From: Acidobacteriota bacterium
Lineage (GTDB): Bacteria > Acidobacteriota > Holophagae > Holophagales > Holophagaceae
Direction: 5' to 3'
NCBI GenBank assembly: GCA_016213735.1
Contig: JACQZU010000004.1
Location: 1 to 49,793 of the forward strand
DNA: 49,793 nt
Both the position numbers and the translations under genes were made by a program. The notes below the pieces were generated by a model. It ran no database searches, was not told the DNA's origin, and was given only the letters and a program-made list of their open reading frames with translations. Positions 4,331 through 13,935 of this stretch are shown here, one piece after another. How positions within the stretch are numbered: the stretch's first letter is position 1; every line of letters starts with the position of its first letter.

Positions 4331-4409
4331 GGATCGGACGCCATTCGCGGGCCAGCGCCCGATGTCCATAGATCCCCGGAAACGGACACGTTGGTGGGGT
4401 GTGACGCGA

Positions 4410-4535
4410 GCCATCCAGGGCGGGAGACATAGCGGCCCGTTATGTCTAGGGCGGCGGCGGAAGTCCGCGCAGCGGACCAGTTGAGATAATCGGCGATTAT
4501 CGCCACTGCGCCGCCGCCCGACCGCCCTGGATGGC
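4410..4535. repeat. 126-bp nested, multi-branched palindrome
   Basis: Five perfect stems nest in 126 bp. The outer stem is 4410-4423 with 4522-4535 (14 bp, GCCATCCAGGGCGG). A left hairpin is 4425-4431 with 4441-4447 (AGACATA/TATGTCT, 9-nt loop). The inner stem is 4449-4459 with 4509-4519 (11 bp). Inside it are two hairpins: 4463-4468 with 4472-4477 (GTCCGC/GCGGAC, 3-nt loop) and 4485-4491 with 4495-4501 (GATAATC/GATTATC, 3-nt loop). It lies upstream of pgi with no overlapping gene. It could be a structured RNA, a palindromic mobile repeat or a DNA cruciform; strand is undetermined. Confidence 0.85.
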
Positions 4536-4657
4536 GGCGATGGATGCTGCCACCCCCCAGGCGCGGGTGGGCGTTGGGCGCTAAACATTGCCGCCGCCGA
4601 AGGCGGCTACCCCTTCCTTTTCACTCCCTCGATGCACCACGTTCTTGATACACGGGG

Positions 4658-4682
4658 AACGCCCCGAGGCAGGGGCGTTTCT
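4658..4682 (+). terminator. Terminator-like hairpin
   Basis: A perfect 8-bp stem AACGCCCC/GGGGCGTT with a 6-nt loop is followed by TTCTT. The shape fits an intrinsic terminator on the plus strand, but no transcription unit is evident upstream. Confidence 0.4.
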
Positions 4683-5023
4683 TCGCGTTCATGGTGCGGA
4701 TCCTGGTGCACCCGACGCGCCCGACACCACGAATGCACCATCCAAAAGTCCGCAGGATTATTGGGCTTCACCGGAGGGACGCCACAGTCAGACGCCATGT
4801 CCAACTTGCCACCGCTGAAAGGCGGTTGCCTCTCCGCGATCAACGGCCCGGGAATGCCCCTTTTGGGGGCCGGTCGAATCCAGGGGACGGAGGGATCGAA
4901 TCCCAGCTTTCCGAGGGGCTCCAGGAACCTCTTTGACCCTGCTTTTGGCCTGCGAGCGGCTCCGCCGCCGTGGGCCTCAAATACCCTGGCGAAGGCCAAG
5001 GGTATAATGTCCATGTCATTTTG

Positions 5024-5043
5024 AAGCCCAAAGGGCGGCTTTT
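5024..5043 (+). terminator. Terminator-like hairpin with short T run
   Basis: AAGCC (5024-5028) pairs with GGCTT (5037-5041), with inner C/G pairs, and the stem runs into TTTT. It follows the TATAAT word at 5003-5008, so a very short transcript is conceivable but unproven. Confidence 0.3.
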
Positions 5044-5311
5044 CGTTGGGAGGTTCCGGGGCCGAATCGAGGCGTTCCGGACCAAATCCGGGAACGAATC
5101 AAAGGCCCAAAAATGGGGGCGAAAAACGGGGTTCCCGGGAACGCGGATTGGACCCTGGATGCCTCCGGGTTGAGGATTCGTCAGGGGGATTCTTGGGGGG
5201 ATCTTCAGGCCGAAAAATGGCCCCATAAATCCCTCCAGGTAGGGATCTCAGGGGACTGGATAAACCAGGGAAATTTTCCAAAAGACTGGAAGGCGGGCTG
5301 GCTCACGGGGC

Positions 5312-5345
5312 GGGTCCGAGACGACCTACCCGTAGGCTCGGACCC
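5312..5345. repeat. Two-tier hairpin
   Basis: GGGTCCGAG (5312-5320) pairs with CTCGGACCC (5337-5345). Inside, CCTAC (5325-5329) pairs with GTAGG (5332-5336) around a CC turn. There is no T tract. It lies about 140 bp beyond the end of the RHS island genes on their strand. Confidence 0.65.
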
Positions 5346-5740: not shown

Positions 5741-7356
5741 TTAATATCGAATTTCTGGCGCAGCACCGTTGCAGTTAGTATCAGAGAAATTCTGAATTGA
5801 TCTGTAATTTGCAGACCAATTATTTTGAATGGTTTGGAAAGTGTTTTGGAGGGCAATTCCATCCGTGATAGTGGAATAAGTAAGCCCACCAACACCCCCA
5901 ACGATAGCCCCTCCAAGAGCACCTAATCCTGCACCAGGACCTGCTCCAACACCCAGCCCCAGAACTGCTCCAATAGCAGCGCCTGCCGTGCCAAAAGTAA
6001 CCCCTCCGCCAATTGCTCCCTTAGCAGTGGCAATACTTATCCCACGCAAATAGGAACGGACTGCTGCTGAATCTGCATTCGCTTTACTTTGGTCATTTTG
6101 TCGCTGTAAGGCAGAAATTTGACCATTACACGGTGTCTTCTGTTGTTGTGTTTGCGGCGGCCCGTTTCGGACAAGCCTAGAAACCGGGTTGCCAAGTGGA
6201 TTCAAATTTGGGTTTCCAACCTCCACATCTACTCCCGAAAGGGGGTTCCCAGCCGAGCCGATCACCTCGACGGTCGCTTCTGCTTGCATTGCAGCGTAAA
6301 GGTAGATCATCGCATCCGCCCAGGATGAAAAATATTGATCCCCTACCTTCCACCAGACTTGCGTTTCCATTCCACTCGGATCCGCCGCCTGCAGAGGACT
6401 CCCCCCCACATACGCGAACTGATTGAACTGGTTCGGATCCACCCCCTGGTCGCTGTTCAGGAACCGATGCCAGGCCGGGCTGTAGTACCTTCCGCCCATG
6501 TAGATCAGTTCCTTCAGCCCGGTGGGATCAGCCTGGAGGTGGCCGGTGTACCCCGTCAGGGGGACATAGCCGTCGGTCCACTCGGCGGAGGTGATGTATT
6601 CGCCGAAGGGCGCGTAGGCCTGGCGGCCCTCGATGCTGCCGTCCGTCCCCCGGGTGAAGACCCGCGGCGTGCCCAGGGGGTCCGTGTGCAGTTCGTGGAT
6701 GGCCCCGAAACTGTCGATCTCCGCGATGGCCCGGCCGCCCAGGTAGACCACGTCCCGGTTCCAGGTCGCCGGGGCACCCTCCCGGCCCTGGACCGCCGCC
6801 AGCCCCGCCGCGCAGGCGTAGTAGCTGGTGGTGCTCAGGGGATCCGTGCTCTGCAGGGCCGGAGCGCTCTCGAAACCCTCCTGCAGCACCGCCGCCCCGT
6901 TGCGCGTCACCCCAAGGTCATCGTAGTCCACGAAGGTGGACGCCGTGGCGTTGGCGCTGGTGGCGGTGAACATGTCCCCGTACAGGTGGATCCACAGATT
7001 ATCCGCCCGCTGCAGCGTGAAGGTGATGGAAAGCCGCTGCCAGGCCCCGTTGCCCGCCAGGGAAACGAACCTCTTGCTGTCCGCCGGATCCCCGGGGCGA
7101 CCGTCGTGGATCCCGAGCGCCCCGCTGACCCCGGCCGGGGCCTTGAACCAGACCGAGGCCGTCACCGTGTCCCCGGCGGCGAAGGCCCCCAGGGCCCGGC
7201 TCAGCGCCCCGGCCCCCGCCGCGGCGTGGTACACCCCAGCCCCCTTCTGGCCCCCGTGGGACCCGCTGCCCACCGCGAAGACCGTCAGCGGCTCCCGGTG
7301 GAAGCCGTACACCGTGTACTGCGTCGTCCCCTCCGTCCCGTTCGTGCGGCGGAAAC
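5741..7356 (-). pseudogene. Start-less orphan RHS C-terminal cassette (tip 2)
   Basis: An open frame encoding the end of an RHS/YD-repeat protein: a lectin- or carbohydrate-binding-like beta domain shared with the full-length RHS gene, then RHS core words (DPLGTPRVFTRGTDGS, YMGGRYYSPAWHRFLNSDQG, FAYVGGSPLQAADPSG), then a unique tip of about 205 residues. The tip contains a long Gly/Ala-rich hydrophobic stretch (GAAIGAVLGLGVGAGPGAG type), suggesting a membrane-inserting segment. The frame runs open to 7711, but 7366-7708 is antisense to an istB remnant, so there is no native start or ribosome binding site. Bases 6965-7356 align without gaps to 9331-9722 of the intact gene. I read this as a silent tip cassette that could be expressed after recombination. 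It is followed at once by a small membrane protein gene. The tip becomes AT-rich in its last 450 bp. Confidence 0.75.
6965..7356 (-). repeat. 392-bp direct repeat shared with the full-length RHS gene (copy A)
   Basis: It aligns to 9331-9722 with a constant offset of 2366 bp and no gaps, with scattered substitutions. Both copies are read in the same RHS frame, so crossing over anywhere within it would join the full-length gene to tip 2 in frame. Homology stops abruptly at 7356, where istB-related sequence begins. Confidence 0.85.
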
Positions 7357-7365
7357 CGCCCGGCC

Positions 7366-7708
7366 CCACCTCCTGATCGTGGATGAGCTCGGCTACCTGC
7401 CCCTGAAACGCCAGGCCGGCCACCTCCTGTTCCACCTGATCCGCCGACGCTAGGAAAAGGGCAGCCTGATGATCACCAGCAACCAGCCCGTGGGCTCCTG
7501 GGGCGAGATGCTCGGCGACGAGGTGGTGGCCACGGCGATCCTTGACCGGCTGCTGCACCACAGCCACATCCTGACCATCAAGGGCGAGAGCTATCGCCTG
7601 AAAGAGAAACGCCAAGCCGGGATCGTCCCGGTCAAGGTGGGCCGCGAGGCCCTTTTCCTGAACTGCCGGAAAGAGAGGGGGGTCTTCTCCCGAACACCGG
7701 CAGAATGA
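7366..7708 (+). pseudogene. istB: IS21-family istB helper ATPase, C-terminal remnant
   Basis: The C-terminal half of an IS21-type IstB AAA+ transposition helper. Visible are the Walker B segment LLIVDELGYLPL, then HLLFHLIRRR, an in-frame TAG at 7451-7453 where the family normally has tyrosine, then EKGSLMITSNQPVGSWG, VVATAILDRLLHHSHILTIKG and YRLKEKRQAG, ending at TGA 7706-7708. Walker A, the N-terminal half and istA are absent, and no terminal inverted repeats were recognised. The fragment abuts the 392-bp RHS homology at 7356. An IS21 element probably took part in bringing the second RHS cassette here and then decayed. It is not functional. Confidence 0.85.
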
Positions 7709-7718
7709 CATGATAACA

Positions 7719-7997
7719 TTATCTCAATCGTTTCCAGTACAACCAAGGCAATGAAATTACAGAAAACCATAGTAAGCCGATGACCCAAAAAACGGTATCT
7801 TTGGATTGTAATTTAAGCTTAATCATTTTGACGAAACCGTATACAACAGAGATAATCCAGCCAATGCCAAAAATCGATGCCAAGGAGATCTGAAGCAATT
7901 GGTGATTCTCAAAATCATTAAAAACATTGGACAAAATAATCAAAGGTATACCCAGTAGTGGCCAGTGGCAAAATATTAGGTCGGATTTTTTTCTCAT
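7719..7997 (-). CDS. Small polytopic membrane protein, candidate immunity protein for RHS tip 1
   Basis: A 92-residue protein with about three membrane helices (near residues 10-25, 37-57 and 68-85) and a basic C-terminus. No known family was recognised. ATG 7995-7997 is preferred over the ATG at 8010-8012 because GGAGAC lies at proper spacing before it; the upstream ATG has no ribosome binding site. It begins 22 nt after the stop of the full-length RHS gene on the same strand and shares its AT-rich composition, which differs sharply from the RHS core. Position suggests an immunity protein for the AT-rich tip of that gene. It lacks obvious sequence similarity to the other small membrane protein at 5486-5725. 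Confidence 0.65.
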   Translation of the reverse strand: MRKKSDLIFCHWPLLGIPLIILSNVFNDFENHQLLQISLASIFGIGWIISVVYGFVKMIKLKLQSKDTVFWVIGLLWFSVISLPWLYWKRLR

Positions 7998-8019
7998 ATT
8001 GTCTCCACTCATTAATATT

Positions 8020-11000
8020 TTATGGGGTCTTACATTCGATTGTTTCAGACGATCTGCTTCCGTTTCTCTTAAAGAAATTCAGGATGCCAAAGTCAAATGA
8101 AACACCAGCACCAAATGCAGCCTTAAAGCCTGCTCCAAGCCCTTTATCGCGCGTATAACCAGCATTTGCACCAAGCTGGCTTCCGGTTGTCGCACCTGCT
8201 TTAACTGTCACTAAATCAAACCCACCGAGCAAATTGACAGTCACTTTGCCACCTGCTGATGCGTTTGGTCCTCGTGCTGCGGCATTTGTCGCGACGCCAA
8301 TTCCATTGAGCCCAGCATTGACTTCAAGTTCTGCTGGACTTGTCTTTGTTGACCCGGAAAAGGTTAATAGCCCAAAGAAGGTCGTGATGCTCTTTTCTAT
8401 TTCGGTCTTCTTTCCTGCCCAAAAACTGAAACCTTTAATTGTCGCATCTCCACCATGACCCTCAGTTTCAGTACGGACGGTGGTGACTGAACCATCAACG
8501 GTAGTAGTTTTTGTCTGCTTTAAGTCACCTTTTGATAGATCCTCTGTTTTTGTTTGCGACAATTCCGCAGCTGGTGTATCCGTCCCCGATTGGCCCTGTG
8601 GCGCCGGTGCTTTGCCTCCCGTTGATTTCTTATCCCCGCCCGTGAGGATGATCAAGGTCGCACCCGGGGCCAGGCCGAGTTGTCCCTCGTACTCCGACTC
8701 TTCCTGGCCCGTGGCCCAACGGTGCCCGCCTTTTCCATCCGAGATGATGAAGGCCCTTCCATCCGGGTCCGAGTGGGTCACCGGGTTGTTGGTCACGTAG
8801 TTGTACAAATTCCAGCTTTCGGGATCGTCCTTGGTCTGGTCGTAGGCCGGATCCACCTGCGCGAACTTCCCGTAGGCCGGCAGGTACATCCGCGCCTGCA
8901 TGTAGATCGCCGATCCCGGCTGGTCCTCGTGGTTGGTGAAGCGGCGGATGCTGGTGGCGCCCTCGCTTCCGAACCTCTCCCCGAAGGGCAGGTTCTTGCT
9001 CTTGCCGACCACGATGCCAGCACCGTCCGTGATCCAGTTCGGACTGCCGAGGTTGTCGCCCTGGATGTAGCGCGTCCCGTCCGCCGTCTCCTCGCTCAGC
9101 AGCTGCCCGAAGCCGTAGACGCAGGATTTCTTCCATTCCAGCGTTCCGCCCGAGACCACCTCTGTCTGCAGGCTGGCGCAGGCGTACCAGGCGGCCTGGC
9201 TCAGCGGGTCCGTCCCGATGGCGAGCCCCGCCTCGAATCCTTCCGTCAGCACCTGCCCCCGCTGCGTGCTGCCCACCGACACGTCGTCGTAGACCACCTT
9301 CGTGGCCGCCGTCTGGTTCAGGCTCGTGCTGGTGAACATGTCCCCGTACAGGTGGATCCACAGATTATCCGCCCGCTGCAGCGTGAAGGTGATGGAAAGC
9401 TGCTGCCAGGCCCCGTTGCCCGCCAGGGAAACGCACTTCTTGCTGTCGGTCGGGGCGCCGATCTTTCCGTCGTGGATCGCCAGGAGGCCCGAGACGCCCG
9501 CCGGGGCCTTGAACCAGACCGAGGCCGTCACCGTGTCCCCGGCGGCGAAGGCCCCCAGGGCCCGGCTCAGCGCCCCGGCACCGGCCGTTGCGTGGTGGAC
9601 CGCCGCCCCCTTCTGACCCCCGTGGGACCCGCTGCCCACCGCGAAGACCGCCAGCGGCTCCCGGTGGAAGCTGTACACCGTGTACTGCGTCGTCCCCTCC
9701 GTCCCGTTCGTGCGGCGGAAACGGAGCCCTTCCCCGTCCAGCAGGAAGCTCGCCGTCACCCCCTCCACCCGCTCCCGCACCACGCGGCCCGACGGGTCGT
9801 AGACCCAGGAGGTCGTGTGCGCCCCCGTGTTGTTCGGGATCGCCTCGACAGAAGCCAGCCGGCCCAGGTCGTCGTACACCGCCCCCGTGGAGAGAGGCCC
9901 GTTCACCGTGTTCACCGCGGAGGGCAGGTCGTTGGACCCGTTGTACGCCGCCGTCCAGGCCAGCACCTCCTCGGGCTTCGTCCCCCCGGCCCCCGCCGTG
10001 TAGGAGAACCCCGAACTGCTCCGGTTGCCCCAGCGGTCATAGGAAAAGGCCTGTTCCATCCGTTCCCCCGGATGGAGCCCCTGGACCGAGGCGCTGCTGA
10101 GGCGCTGGAGCGCGTCGTAATCGAAACTGTCCCCGCCCCGGGACAGCATCAGCCCCCCCGCGCTCCAGGCGATCGCCAGATCCTCCAGGACCGCGCCCCC
10201 CGCTTCGTGCTTGAGCTGGACCAGTTCCCCCTGGTCCCTGCGCCACGCCGTGGTGGCGCCGTTCCCGTAGGTGAGGGTGTCCGTCACGGTGGCGCCCACC
10301 GCAGGGCCATAGGTCATGAGGCCCCGGCGCACGCCCTCCAGCTTCACGTCCCAGGGACGCCGGCTGGCGTCGTAGGTCGTCGTCACGGTCTGGGCGGCCC
10401 GGCCTCCCCCGCTGGGGTAGCTGAGGGAACTCTCCTGCCCGAAGGCGTCCAGCACCCGCGAGACCGTGAAGGACTGGCTCCCGTCCGAGACCGTCTTGGA
10501 TCGCAGGCGGTAGAGATCGTCGTAAAGGTAGGTCTCGGTCAGGGTCGAAGTCCCCACGCCGACGATGTCCATGCTCTCCGTCAGCCCCGCAGGCAGGTGG
10601 GACCCCGGATCGTAGATTCCGAACTGCCGGGTCACCGTGCCTTCGGGGCCCGTTGCGGTCACGGTCTGAGGCAGGAGCCAGGCGTTCAGGTCCGTGGTGG
10701 TCAGGTTGGACCGGTTGCCGCTCCGGCCCTTCTGTGCCACGGTGCGAGGCATCCCCAGCAGGTTGTGCTGGTCGTAATGGGTGGCACCCTCTTCGGGCTC
10801 CAGGCGGTCGGTGAGCCAGCCGATCTTGTTGTAGGTGTAGCTCCGGACCTGGTTCCCCTGCTCCGTCAGGCAGAGACGGCCGTCCTCGTCGTAGGTGTAG
10901 GTGCTCACCTGGCCCGCCTGGTCCACCACCGCCGCCTTCTGGCCCAGCAGGTCGGTGACGGTGGTCCTGGGGTTGTTCCGGTCATCCTGCACCGTGGTCA

Positions 11001-13905
11001 CCACGCCCGTCCGGCCGCTCATCGTTTCCAGCATCCACGTGGGCTGCCGGGTCACGGTGCTGAGGCGCCTGCCCCGGGGGTCCGTCACGCTCTCGACCCG
11101 GTCCAGGGGGTCGTAGGTCCAGGTGGTCCGGCCGTACTCGGCTTCGTCGGGTTTCAGGACCGGGGTCTGGGAGGCCTTCAAGCCCCATTCGTTGTAGGCC
11201 GTCAACTGCCGGCTGCCGTCGGGGAAGTCCACGCGGACCACCCGACCGTGGGCATCCAGGGTCGTGCGGGTCACCAGGGTCCGGGTTTCCCCCGCGACGG
11301 ACTCCTCCTTCCAGCGCCCGTTGGGGTCGTAGGTCGTGGTGGAGGCGAGGGCCCCCACGGCCCCCCGGGGCAGGCGGGTCACCCTCCAGGTGCGACCCCA
11401 CCCGTCGTACTCCGTGGTGGTCACGATGCCGAGGGGATCGGTGCGCTGGGTCTCCCGCCCGAGGCCGTCCCGCTGGTAGGTGGTCCAGCGGCCGTCCACC
11501 AGGTCCCGCTCCCCCGTGAGCCAGTGCTGGGGGCCCGGATCGTAGGTGTACTCATGGCCCGCGGTGACGGGAAGGGTGGGATGCGCCGGGACGGGGACAC
11601 TGTTGTTGGTCAGCGTCTTTTCCACGCGGGTGGGAAGGGGGAGGTCCCCGAGGAAGGAGACCGTGCGCTCCTGGGAGACGAAGGGGGTCCGGGTCCCCGT
11701 CCGGGACTCGATGCGGCCCTTGGGGTCGAAGGTGATGTCCGTGGTCCCGAAATCCACGGAGGTGACGGGCTGCTTCTGGGCGTCCACCCGAAGGCCCGGG
11801 AGGGCGCTGCCGGCCAGGGTTTTCTGCTCCTTCGTGGATTGCAGGGCCCCGAGGGCATCGTTCCATGCCCGGGTCAGGAGCATCCCTTTCCGGTGGATGG
11901 GCCCACTCCCGGGGATCGGGAGGCTGGCGGACCACATTTCGGGTGGATTGTTGTCCACCGCTGGGGGGAATTGGCCTTGCGGCGGCTCCACCACCTCGTC
12001 GCTCTGGGTGGGGCCATAGGCGTCCCGGGTGCCCCCGGCCCGGAGGGTCCGTTTGGGCAGGTCCCGGGTGTGGACCTGGGTCCGCATGGCCACGGGGTTC
12101 AGGGGAAGGCCCACCGCACCCGCGGGATTGGCCCAGCTCCGGAGGTCGTAGCCGTCCACCACGGTGACCTGGTCCACGTCGGAGACGGCGGGTCTCCAGG
12201 CGCCGGAGGCCAGGTCCGCACTTCCCGGGAAACCGCTTCCCCGGATTTTTTCGCGTCCGAGGATCATGGCCGTGGCGAAGGCATAGACCTGGGTGTCCCC
12301 CAGGGCCGGCTGCTTCAGGACGGGATCCACCGCCCAGATCCTGCCCTTGGGATGGGTGATCCGCTCCCCCCTGAAGGGCGTGCCGGCCCCGGGGGCGGCG
12401 CTGGGGTAGGTGAGGATGTGGGTGAGGTGCTCGGGCTGGGTGTACACATCATCCATGCCGGTGGCCTGATCCACCTGGGCCCTCGGCCACACCTTGGCGA
12501 TGAGCACGGTGCGTCCGGGATCCCCGGGGTCCCCACTGGTGGTGGTGATGGTCTGGACCCCCATGAGCCGTTTCCCCGGCACCGGGGTCCCCGCCGCCGG
12601 GATTTCCCCGCTGTCGCGGAAGGGTTTCCAGCCCGACCAGACCCCATTGTCATAGCTGAAGGCCCCCAGGGAATGGGATTCGGCGTAGGTGAAGGTCTCG
12701 GTCAGACCTTCGGGATGACTGACCTCCACCGGCAGGGCGGGGGTGCCCTCGTAGGGCGGATAATAGGAGCCACCGGGCCCCGTGCGCCCCGGAGCCAGGA
12801 TCCGGTTCGGGCTCCACACAAAGGTGGTGGTTCGGGTCTGGTTGGCCGCACTCTCGGCCCAGCTGAGGGGGAGAAAGCCCCCGTCAAAGATCCCTGCCCA
12901 GGTGCTACCTCCCTGGGGGTTCCAGGGTGTCTTCCGCTGATGGGAGCGGTAGCGCCCGGTGAGCGTGGCGGTGGGCAGGCCAAGACTGTTGATCACCGTG
13001 AGGGTGGCCGTGGGTGAACTGTCCACCAGGCTGACCCCGTCCTCCCAGTAGGCCAATGGGAGCACCCCCGTCAAATCCAGGCTGATCGTGTCCGCTGTCA
13101 CGGCCAGGTTCTGCAGGACAATCCTGGTAGGAGCGCCGGGCTGGCCCCCACTCTCCGTGATGGTGACGTGGTCTCCCCAACGGTTGGTCACGTGGGTGAC
13201 GTTCTGGGCACGGATGCTCCATATGGCCTGGTCTTCCAGCAGCACGATGGAGCGCTTGGGCAGGTCCAGGTGCTTCATCCTCTCGTCCACGGGGTCCAGG
13301 TAATCCACATGCCAGTAGGCGTCCAGGAAGAACCGGGTGCCGTCCGAAGCCGGGTAGACGAAGTCCACCTGGAAGACAACGCCTCCCGCACCCGGATCCG
13401 GGCCGAGGTAACTCTCGGCCTCTGTCTGACCGGTATCCACCCCACGCTGGGTGGCCCAGGCCAGCAGTTTGGCCTTGTCGGGGAGGGTCACGCCCGCAGG
13501 TACGCTGCGATGAAACGAGAGTTGGGAACCCTGGTACAGCACGGTGGCCTGGGCTGGGGAAGTGCTGGGATCCGCAAGATCCGGCCATTCCACCGGCTTG
13601 AAGGACCCGCCGAGGTTGGGCGGGATCCGCTCACCGATGGGGATCCCGCTCCGCAGGCCATCGTTGGTGTGAAGGGTCCAGACGAATCCCAGGGGAATGC
13701 GGCCAGGGAGTTTGGGACCCAGGGGGATCCTCAAGCCCAGGTTTCCCTGGACGGCATCCACCGAGCCCAATCGCACAGGGATGGATGCCGTGGCCGATGG
13801 GGCGTCCGGGGTGAAGGGGGGAAGGGGAGAGGTTTGGGCCCCGAGGGGCACCAGGCCCCAGAGGAGCAGGGCAGTCCGAAGCGGCCCCAGGAGGGTTCCT
13901 TGCAT
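8020..13905 (-). CDS. Secreted RHS/YD-repeat protein with polymorphic toxin-like C-terminal tip
   Basis: A 1961-residue protein beginning with a Sec signal peptide (hydrophobic LLLWGLVPLGA, likely cleaved near residue 25). A large N-terminal beta-rich region follows, then many YD-type repeats between about residues 850 and 1400 (for example YTYDEDGRLCLTEQG). Next come a beta-sandwich domain resembling carbohydrate-binding modules, the RHS core end (RMYLPAYGKFAQVDPAYDQ, YNYVTNNPVTHSDPDGR), and a unique tip of about 245 residues rich in Gly, Thr and Ala. YD repeats form a shell that encapsulates a C-terminal toxin in known RHS and Tc proteins. ATG 13903-13905 is chosen because GAGG lies 7 nt upstream; a GTG at 13924-13926 is the alternative. 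The gene starts 30 nt after the Ig-repeat gene and is followed by a candidate immunity gene. The tip turns AT-rich below about 8640. Its toxic activity is unknown. Confidence 0.85.
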   Translation of the reverse strand: MQGTLLGPLRTALLLWGLVPLGAQTSPLPPFTPDAPSATASIPVRLGSVDAVQGNLGLRIPLGPKLPGRIPLGFVWTLHTNDGLRSGIPIGERIPPNLGGSFKPVEWPDLADPSTSPAQATVLYQGSQLSFHRSVPAGVTLPDKAKLLAWATQRGVDTGQTEAESYLGPDPGAGGVVFQVDFVYPASDGTRFFLDAYWHVDYLDPVDERMKHLDLPKRSIVLLEDQAIWSIRAQNVTHVTNRWGDHVTITESGGQPGAPTRIVLQNLAVTADTISLDLTGVLPLAYWEDGVSLVDSSPTATLTVINSLGLPTATLTGRYRSHQRKTPWNPQGGSTWAGIFDGGFLPLSWAESAANQTRTTTFVWSPNRILAPGRTGPGGSYYPPYEGTPALPVEVSHPEGLTETFTYAESHSLGAFSYDNGVWSGWKPFRDSGEIPAAGTPVPGKRLMGVQTITTTSGDPGDPGRTVLIAKVWPRAQVDQATGMDDVYTQPEHLTHILTYPSAAPGAGTPFRGERITHPKGRIWAVDPVLKQPALGDTQVYAFATAMILGREKIRGSGFPGSADLASGAWRPAVSDVDQVTVVDGYDLRSWANPAGAVGLPLNPVAMRTQVHTRDLPKRTLRAGGTRDAYGPTQSDEVVEPPQGQFPPAVDNNPPEMWSASLPIPGSGPIHRKGMLLTRAWNDALGALQSTKEQKTLAGSALPGLRVDAQKQPVTSVDFGTTDITFDPKGRIESRTGTRTPFVSQERTVSFLGDLPLPTRVEKTLTNNSVPVPAHPTLPVTAGHEYTYDPGPQHWLTGERDLVDGRWTTYQRDGLGRETQRTDPLGIVTTTEYDGWGRTWRVTRLPRGAVGALASTTTYDPNGRWKEESVAGETRTLVTRTTLDAHGRVVRVDFPDGSRQLTAYNEWGLKASQTPVLKPDEAEYGRTTWTYDPLDRVESVTDPRGRRLSTVTRQPTWMLETMSGRTGVVTTVQDDRNNPRTTVTDLLGQKAAVVDQAGQVSTYTYDEDGRLCLTEQGNQVRSYTYNKIGWLTDRLEPEEGATHYDQHNLLGMPRTVAQKGRSGNRSNLTTTDLNAWLLPQTVTATGPEGTVTRQFGIYDPGSHLPAGLTESMDIVGVGTSTLTETYLYDDLYRLRSKTVSDGSQSFTVSRVLDAFGQESSLSYPSGGGRAAQTVTTTYDASRRPWDVKLEGVRRGLMTYGPAVGATVTDTLTYGNGATTAWRRDQGELVQLKHEAGGAVLEDLAIAWSAGGLMLSRGGDSFDYDALQRLSSASVQGLHPGERMEQAFSYDRWGNRSSSGFSYTAGAGGTKPEEVLAWTAAYNGSNDLPSAVNTVNGPLSTGAVYDDLGRLASVEAIPNNTGAHTTSWVYDPSGRVVRERVEGVTASFLLDGEGLRFRRTNGTEGTTQYTVYSFHREPLAVFAVGSGSHGGQKGAAVHHATAGAGALSRALGAFAAGDTVTASVWFKAPAGVSGLLAIHDGKIGAPTDSKKCVSLAGNGAWQQLSITFTLQRADNLWIHLYGDMFTSTSLNQTAATKVVYDDVSVGSTQRGQVLTEGFEAGLAIGTDPLSQAAWYACASLQTEVVSGGTLEWKKSCVYGFGQLLSEETADGTRYIQGDNLGSPNWITDGAGIVVGKSKNLPFGERFGSEGATSIRRFTNHEDQPGSAIYMQARMYLPAYGKFAQVDPAYDQTKDDPESWNLYNYVTNNPVTHSDPDGRAFIISDGKGGHRWATGQEESEYEGQLGLAPGATLIILTGGDKKSTGGKAPAPQGQSGTDTPAAELSQTKTEDLSKGDLKQTKTTTVDGSVTTVRTETEGHGGDATIKGFSFWAGKKTEIEKSITTFFGLLTFSGSTKTSPAELEVNAGLNGIGVATNAAARGPNASAGGKVTVNLLGGFDLVTVKAGATTGSQLGANAGYTRDKGLGAGFKAAFGAGVSFDFGILNFFKRNGSRSSETIECKTP
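9331..9722 (-). repeat. 392-bp direct repeat within the full-length RHS gene (copy B)
   Basis: The intragenic partner of 6965-7356, lying within the carbohydrate-binding-like domain just before the variable RHS end. The constant 2366-bp offset and lack of indels point to a recent duplication or to maintenance by gene conversion. Confidence 0.85.
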
Positions 13906-13935
13906 GGTCGTCCTCGCGTTTGTCACGGGCGTCTC

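Follow-up and report, generated by a model that had tools for sequence, protein, structure and literature searches.

What is the nested palindrome at positions 4410-4535 of the window, the whole stretch of 49,793 nucleotides from a member of the Holophagaceae (Acidobacteriota) analysed here, and what may it be used for? On one side of it is the likely start of pgi (about 4285, on the minus strand), on the other an RHS locus. A first-pass annotation, made from the letters of the DNA, had described a 14-bp outer stem, a 7-bp hairpin, an 11-bp inner stem and two hairpins with 3-nt loops, amounting to 45 perfect pairs in a gene-free stretch upstream of pgi, and had suggested that this may be a structured RNA or a palindromic element not yet described. 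On balance, it is best explained as a member of a conserved family of structured nucleic acids residing on mobile elements, most likely a small non-coding RNA of the plus strand.

The fold and its place in the window

All of these parts were found where they had been placed, and five helices contribute the 45 perfect pairs (14 + 7 + 11 + 6 + 7) within 4410-4535 (Table 1). The hairpin P2 is present, but it had been given as 7 bp and consists of ten pairs with one G-U. In the modelled architecture, P1, P2 and P3 form a three-way junction with the joints G, A and GA, and the third arm carries a second junction bearing P4 and P5. The fold is probably extended outward by the predicted helix P0; at this place GCCCAAC and GTTGGGC are paired in the second copy of the own genome and in the G033 copy.

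Table 1. Positions of the element, its helices and joints, and adjoining features in the window
Feature	Position	Strand	Remarks
Element, covariance-model extent	4408-4537	+	R1 119.3 bits, R2 121.4 bits
P0, predicted outer extension, 5' arm	4354-4367	+	pairs with about 4569-4582
P1, outer stem, 5' arm	4410-4423	+	14 bp perfect, partner 4522-4535; 12/14 pairs covary
J1/2, single G	4424	+	G in 15/17 copies, C in 2
P2 hairpin, AGACATAGCG-GCC-CGTTATGTCT	4425-4447	+	most sequence-conserved part, core GACATA/TATGTC
P2 arms	4425-4434/4438-4447	+	10 pairs including one G-U
J2/3, single A	4448	+	A in 17/17 copies
P3, inner stem, 5' arm	4449-4459	+	11 bp, partner 4509-4519
J3/4, GAA	4460-4462	+	GNA in 15/17 copies
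P4 hairpin	4463-4477	+	4463-4468/4472-4477, 6 bp, 3-nt loop
P5 hairpin, core GATAATC-GGC-GATTATC	4478-4508	+	core 4485-4491/4495-4501, 7 bp, 3-nt loop
P3, 3' arm	4509-4519	+	11 bp, partner 4449-4459
J3/1, GA	4520-4521	+	GA in 17/17 copies
P1, 3' arm	4522-4535	+	14 bp perfect with 4410-4423
P0, predicted outer extension, 3' arm	4569-4582	+	pairs with about 4354-4367
Larger unit common to both own-genome copies (G000:C24, G000:C13)	4346-5125	+	about 780 bp, 84% identical
RHS locus, 3' end facing the element	5741-13926	-	RHS-core matches 6368-6616 and 8758-8988

The minimum free energy of 4400-4545 folded as RNA is -94.1 kcal/mol, against a mean of -61.2 (sd 4.0) for shuffled sequences (z -8.3), and as DNA it is -59.6 (z -9.5); in neither case was the value reached by any of 200 shuffles. 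In addition, none of 681 equal-sized tiles covering the whole 49.8 kb is as stable as the element. No convincing gene lies over the element, and the long frame that crosses it on the minus strand probably arose by chance in high-GC DNA.

Rfam 15 (4227 families) gave no match to the element at the gathering thresholds, the weak best scores being 13-17 bits against cut-offs of 39-73, and no Rfam match was obtained at the element in five other copies (L051, L052, L057, L045 and L050). The models of C4 antisense RNA and of the other phage RNAs of Rfam did not match either, and no description of the element was found in the literature searched. With its fold preserved by dozens of compensatory changes in Acidobacteriota, Chloroflexi and phages, this is a real structured nucleic-acid family, absent from Rfam and probably new.

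Copies, covariation and the folded strand

In the own assembly, G000 (28 contigs, 3.59 Mb), BLAST detected a single copy, and it detected several in relatives of the same family. Besides that copy, the own-genome DNA search returned only weak chance pieces, and blastn for plasmid or phage relatives returned only short G+C-rich chance pieces. The covariance model R1, built from eight of these family copies, revealed a second own-genome copy (G000:C13:273903-274027, locus L186) and also matched G033, G064, G065 (two copies), G066, G067 and G070, so that 7 of 77 family genomes are positive. An exact pattern, GGGAGACATA...TTATGTCTAGG, matched only six stretches in the 257-Gb GTDB genome collection, in two new Chloroflexi MAGs, in Holophagaceae and Geothrix MAGs and in a contig binned as Puia. 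Scans of viral contigs added copies in L057, L074 (= L202) and L201, while the pattern matches L058 and L071 were rejected as copies, and a second model, R2, detected G745 and, less strongly, G685, two Acidobacteriota belonging to other families. In all, at least 17 copies found with the covariance models share the nested three-way-junction fold: two in the own genome, others in five more genomes of the family and in the Puia bin, and the rest in two more members of the Acidobacteriota, in two Chloroflexi and on three viral contigs. Several of these contexts are short metagenome contigs whose bin labels, such as Puia, may be wrong; the element, RHS and primase sequences of the contig binned as Puia (Bacteroidota; L056) are Holophagaceae-like and 80-84% identical to G065 DNA, so that it is probably misbinned.

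The element is rare: it was detected in 6 of the 396 genomes of Acidobacteriota and in 1 of the 400 of Chloroflexota (minima, obtained with stricter filters), and a carrying genome has one or two copies while most relatives have none. The dispersed copies that the first-pass annotation had proposed to look for exist, in the own genome and elsewhere, but not in the numbers of a REP-like repeat, and the REP-like reading was rejected because there are only two copies in the own genome and one or two in relatives.

Some copies have further features around them. The window at 4346-5125 and G000:C13:273841-274613 are 84% identical over about 780 bp, which beyond the element seem non-coding. In L047 (6383-7952), an IS3-type insertion splits the element, and a sequence of about 15 bp (TCTAGGCAGGCGGCG) recurs on either side. 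Direct repeats of 50-100 bp lie at about -160 to -70 and +250 to +370 around the g9-genus copies L045, L046, L049 and L056.

In a plain MAFFT alignment of eight copies, not fitted to the structure, 22 pairs are changed on both sides, against a shuffled mean of 6.2. Both-side changes occur in 47 of 65 pairs among 13 copies and compensatory changes in 45 of 56 pairs among 17 copies (reached by none of 500 shuffles), counts which lean upward, since both alignments had been adjusted to the structure of the model and copies that are related cannot be taken as independent. Moreover, 92.1% of the pair cells are paired in the 17-copy alignment, as compared with 36-45% when partners are slid, and single-sequence folding recovers the same fold in most of the copies, including distant ones. 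At the first junction, the three joints G (C in two copies), A and GA hardly change among the groups sampled. The GACATA/TATGTC of P2 persists in nearly all copies, and L182, L186 and L205 show compensatory changes there. The remainder is more variable: P4 ranges from about 15 to about 100 nt, the spacing in P2 varies, and P5 changes in sequence while its pairing is preserved. Since every stem differs among the copies and yet pairs, selection on folding rather than recent copying is indicated; as judged from these alignments, the fold is under selection while the letters drift. The stems are thus kept across 17 copies and not confined to a unique sequence, and the compensatory changes by which a structured non-coding RNA is recognised, and which the annotation had proposed to look for among relatives, are present.

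The paired cells of the 17-copy alignment include 33 G-U or U-G and 3 A-C or C-A combinations (17 and 3 by column). Read from the other strand, the counts would be reversed to 3 and 33, which identifies the plus strand of the window, the one not coding for pgi and RHS, as the strand that folds; reverse-strand matches score far lower. G-U makes up 4% of the paired cells, a rather small share for RNA that would also suit folded single-stranded DNA (ssDNA); because G-T is also the better-tolerated mismatch in DNA, a DNA reading has to be weighed below. No consistent promoter or canonical terminator was found around the copies, the only terminator-like candidate being a weak 5-pair hairpin outside the element. 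RNA is favoured over ssDNA, and it is as RNA that we infer the element to act.

Neighbourhoods of the copies

In all eight testable loci of Holophagaceae type (the window, the second own-genome copy, L044-L047, L049 and L056) the element lies about 0.3-4 kb past the 3' end of RHS, on the opposite strand; L048 and L050 have a contig edge on the RHS side. Roughly calculated for seven copies from five genomes, the probability of such proximity by chance is about 6e-21, a figure which assumes uniform positions and independent copies and so shows only that chance is not the cause. Neither the neighbourhood of an RHS toxin array nor the rarity of the element was foreseen in the earlier annotation. 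Many RHS loci are without the element: with R2, no copy was detected in those regions of the set L187-L200 that bear RHS, so its presence in every RHS locus was rejected, and in L191 a full-model scan gave nothing over noise.

Genes of mobile DNA accompany several of the RHS-linked copies. L045 has a tyrosine recombinase and a CHC2/Toprim primase on the other side of the element, and L056 has a primase and an Xre gene, after which the contig ends. In the G745 locus (L205), the order is element, RHS tip, Xre gene, primase and recombinase, and here the element is upstream of the RHS tip and on the same strand. Only in these three of the element loci was a DnaG-type primase found. L044 and L187 contain a recombinase gene or fragment between RHS tips, while a recombinase motif scan of the DNA read around the copies in the window, L046 and L048-L050 detected none.

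A few observations on these regions may be added. L191 (4900-5900) has the same recombinase, primase and Xre genes without the element and, as judged by eye, an apparent resolvase-like gene instead. In the RHS array of G065, a block of recombinase and RHS tip is duplicated at 98% identity (L044 3999-5898 and L187 4696-6594), which suggests recent rearrangement of tip cassettes. Between the second own-genome copy and its RHS locus, a ThsB-type TIR protein (L186 5350-5841, minus strand; Pfam E 2.6e-27) and a probable membrane protein (4910-5335, minus strand) are encoded, perhaps as a defence module. A DUF6338 gene (L205 3562-4164, minus strand) adjoins the RHS tip in the G745 island.

Other copies are found on what appear, from gene content, to be phages, satellites or plasmids. 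In the Chloroflexi genome G077 (L183), the element has an integrase, an AAA protein and a small terminase to one side of it and, to the other side, a glycogen-branching-enzyme-like gene, an arrangement that resembles the right-hand end of a prophage or satellite. Just upstream of the element, a short HTH reading frame was seen by eye. The Chloroflexi L052/L185 and the viral L057, L074 and L201 have various sets of capsid, portal, terminase or integrase genes. In all three viral contigs, the element follows downstream, at a distance of some hundreds of bases and in opposite orientation, one gene of 120-128 aa whose product starts GQPGNLNAL.HGFYS; no family model recognises this product, and it is taken for small-terminase-like. 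The G064 contig (L182) has a ParA-type ATPase, a weak RepA-like match and no RHS, and seems plasmid-like. No protein family adjoins every copy, no Abi_2 or type III toxin was recognised among the neighbouring proteins scanned, and no reverse transcriptase, as in a retron, was noticed among the ORFs listed around the copies.

The annotation had been reminded of the ends of mobile elements, and the apparent phages, plasmid-like contig and integrative islands bear out that link. Since phages, a plasmid-like contig and chromosomal islands from different phyla all carry it, the simplest view of the element is that it is a functional part of mobile DNA.

Possible functions and comparison with known systems

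As a small structured RNA of a mobile element, it would be transcribed from the plus strand, P2 and the first junction being the face most likely to be bound by a protein or a tertiary partner. By binding a putative protein partner, the RNA might control the maintenance or replication of the mobile element itself, much as phage P4 CI RNA, C4 RNA or RNA antitoxins do, a specific role which is a guess at this stage. A wider and still more speculative proposal is an unrecognised group of mobile elements, some with DnaG-type primase, tyrosine recombinase and RHS toxin cassettes, which may use a folded RNA or ssDNA to move, to replicate or to exchange RHS cassettes; the element would be a part of it (a guide, a regulator or a replication or recombination site) that is shared with phages and satellites of other phyla. 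The placement beside RHS and in phage- and satellite-like contexts offers a concrete handle on how RHS cassettes are acquired or mobile elements controlled.

A possible but less likely reading than RNA is a folded ssDNA site, either an initiation site for the DnaG-type primase of the islands or an attC-like hairpin for the neighbouring tyrosine recombinase. The primase and recombinase of L045 and L205, the primase of L056, the recombinases or fragments of L044 and L187, the integrases of the phages and the Chloroflexi island, and the low G-U share are all consistent with it, but the 33:3 skew of G-U over A-C is stronger than expected from the tolerance of G-T in DNA. The phage G4 origin and the ssi of IncQ plasmids are ssDNA initiation sites of about 130-150 nt with several hairpins, and the element resembles them in size and in its multiple hairpins, and some of its islands also encode a primase. 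No primase was noticed in the viral contigs, however, and the G-U skew points to RNA. Integron attC sites are likewise long imperfect palindromes whose fold is kept over sequence, a tyrosine recombinase is near some copies, and the flanks of several Holophagaceae-type copies hold, by eye, GCCCAAC...GTTGGGC, which matches the attC R''/R' boxes (RYYYAAC/GTTRRRY). However, these arms are missing in the phage and Chloroflexi copies, those of G033 form an unbroken stem of 15 pairs without the unpaired spacer and extrahelical bases of attC, and no recombinase was found by motif scan around the five copies named above. Furthermore, attC has no counterpart of the conserved internal three-way junction and P2 sequence, with one copy per locus no cassette array is apparent, and the spacing in P2 varies, unlike that of a recombinase core site. 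A dif-like or lox-like site in P2 or P5 was considered and rejected, because spacing and sequence vary.

Much less likely than RNA or ssDNA are two further readings. It is improbable that the element is a non-autonomous MITE-like or REP-like repeat moved as DNA, its palindromy serving transposition only: both own-genome copies share about 780 bp, direct repeats surround the g9-genus copies and copies lie at island edges, but most relatives have no copy, neither target-site duplication nor fixed ends are established, and the copies differ in every stem and still pair. REP and BIME sequences are also intergenic palindromes of bacterial genomes, but they number tens to hundreds as against one or two, and they have neither the nested three-way junctions nor the strong long-range covariation. 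It is very improbable that the element serves to terminate or insulate RHS and phage gene clusters at their 3' ends, since, although it is downstream of and opposed to RHS arrays and the small phage gene, it has no U-run, its conserved strand is the antisense strand, in L205 it is upstream of the RHS tip on the same strand, and it is more elaborate and sequence-specific than would be needed.

The favoured reading, a small RNA of mobile elements, has known counterparts. P4 CI RNA and C4 antisense RNA are small structured RNAs of phages and mobile elements. So are the abiF-motif RNAs such as RCd22 (PMC12373285). The element differs from all of these in having no Rfam match and another architecture, and in that no Abi_2 or type III toxin was recognised among its scanned neighbours. 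With P4 CI, C4 and the abiF-motif RNAs, however, it has in common that it is small, structured and located on mobile elements, and that conserved motifs are set on variable stems.
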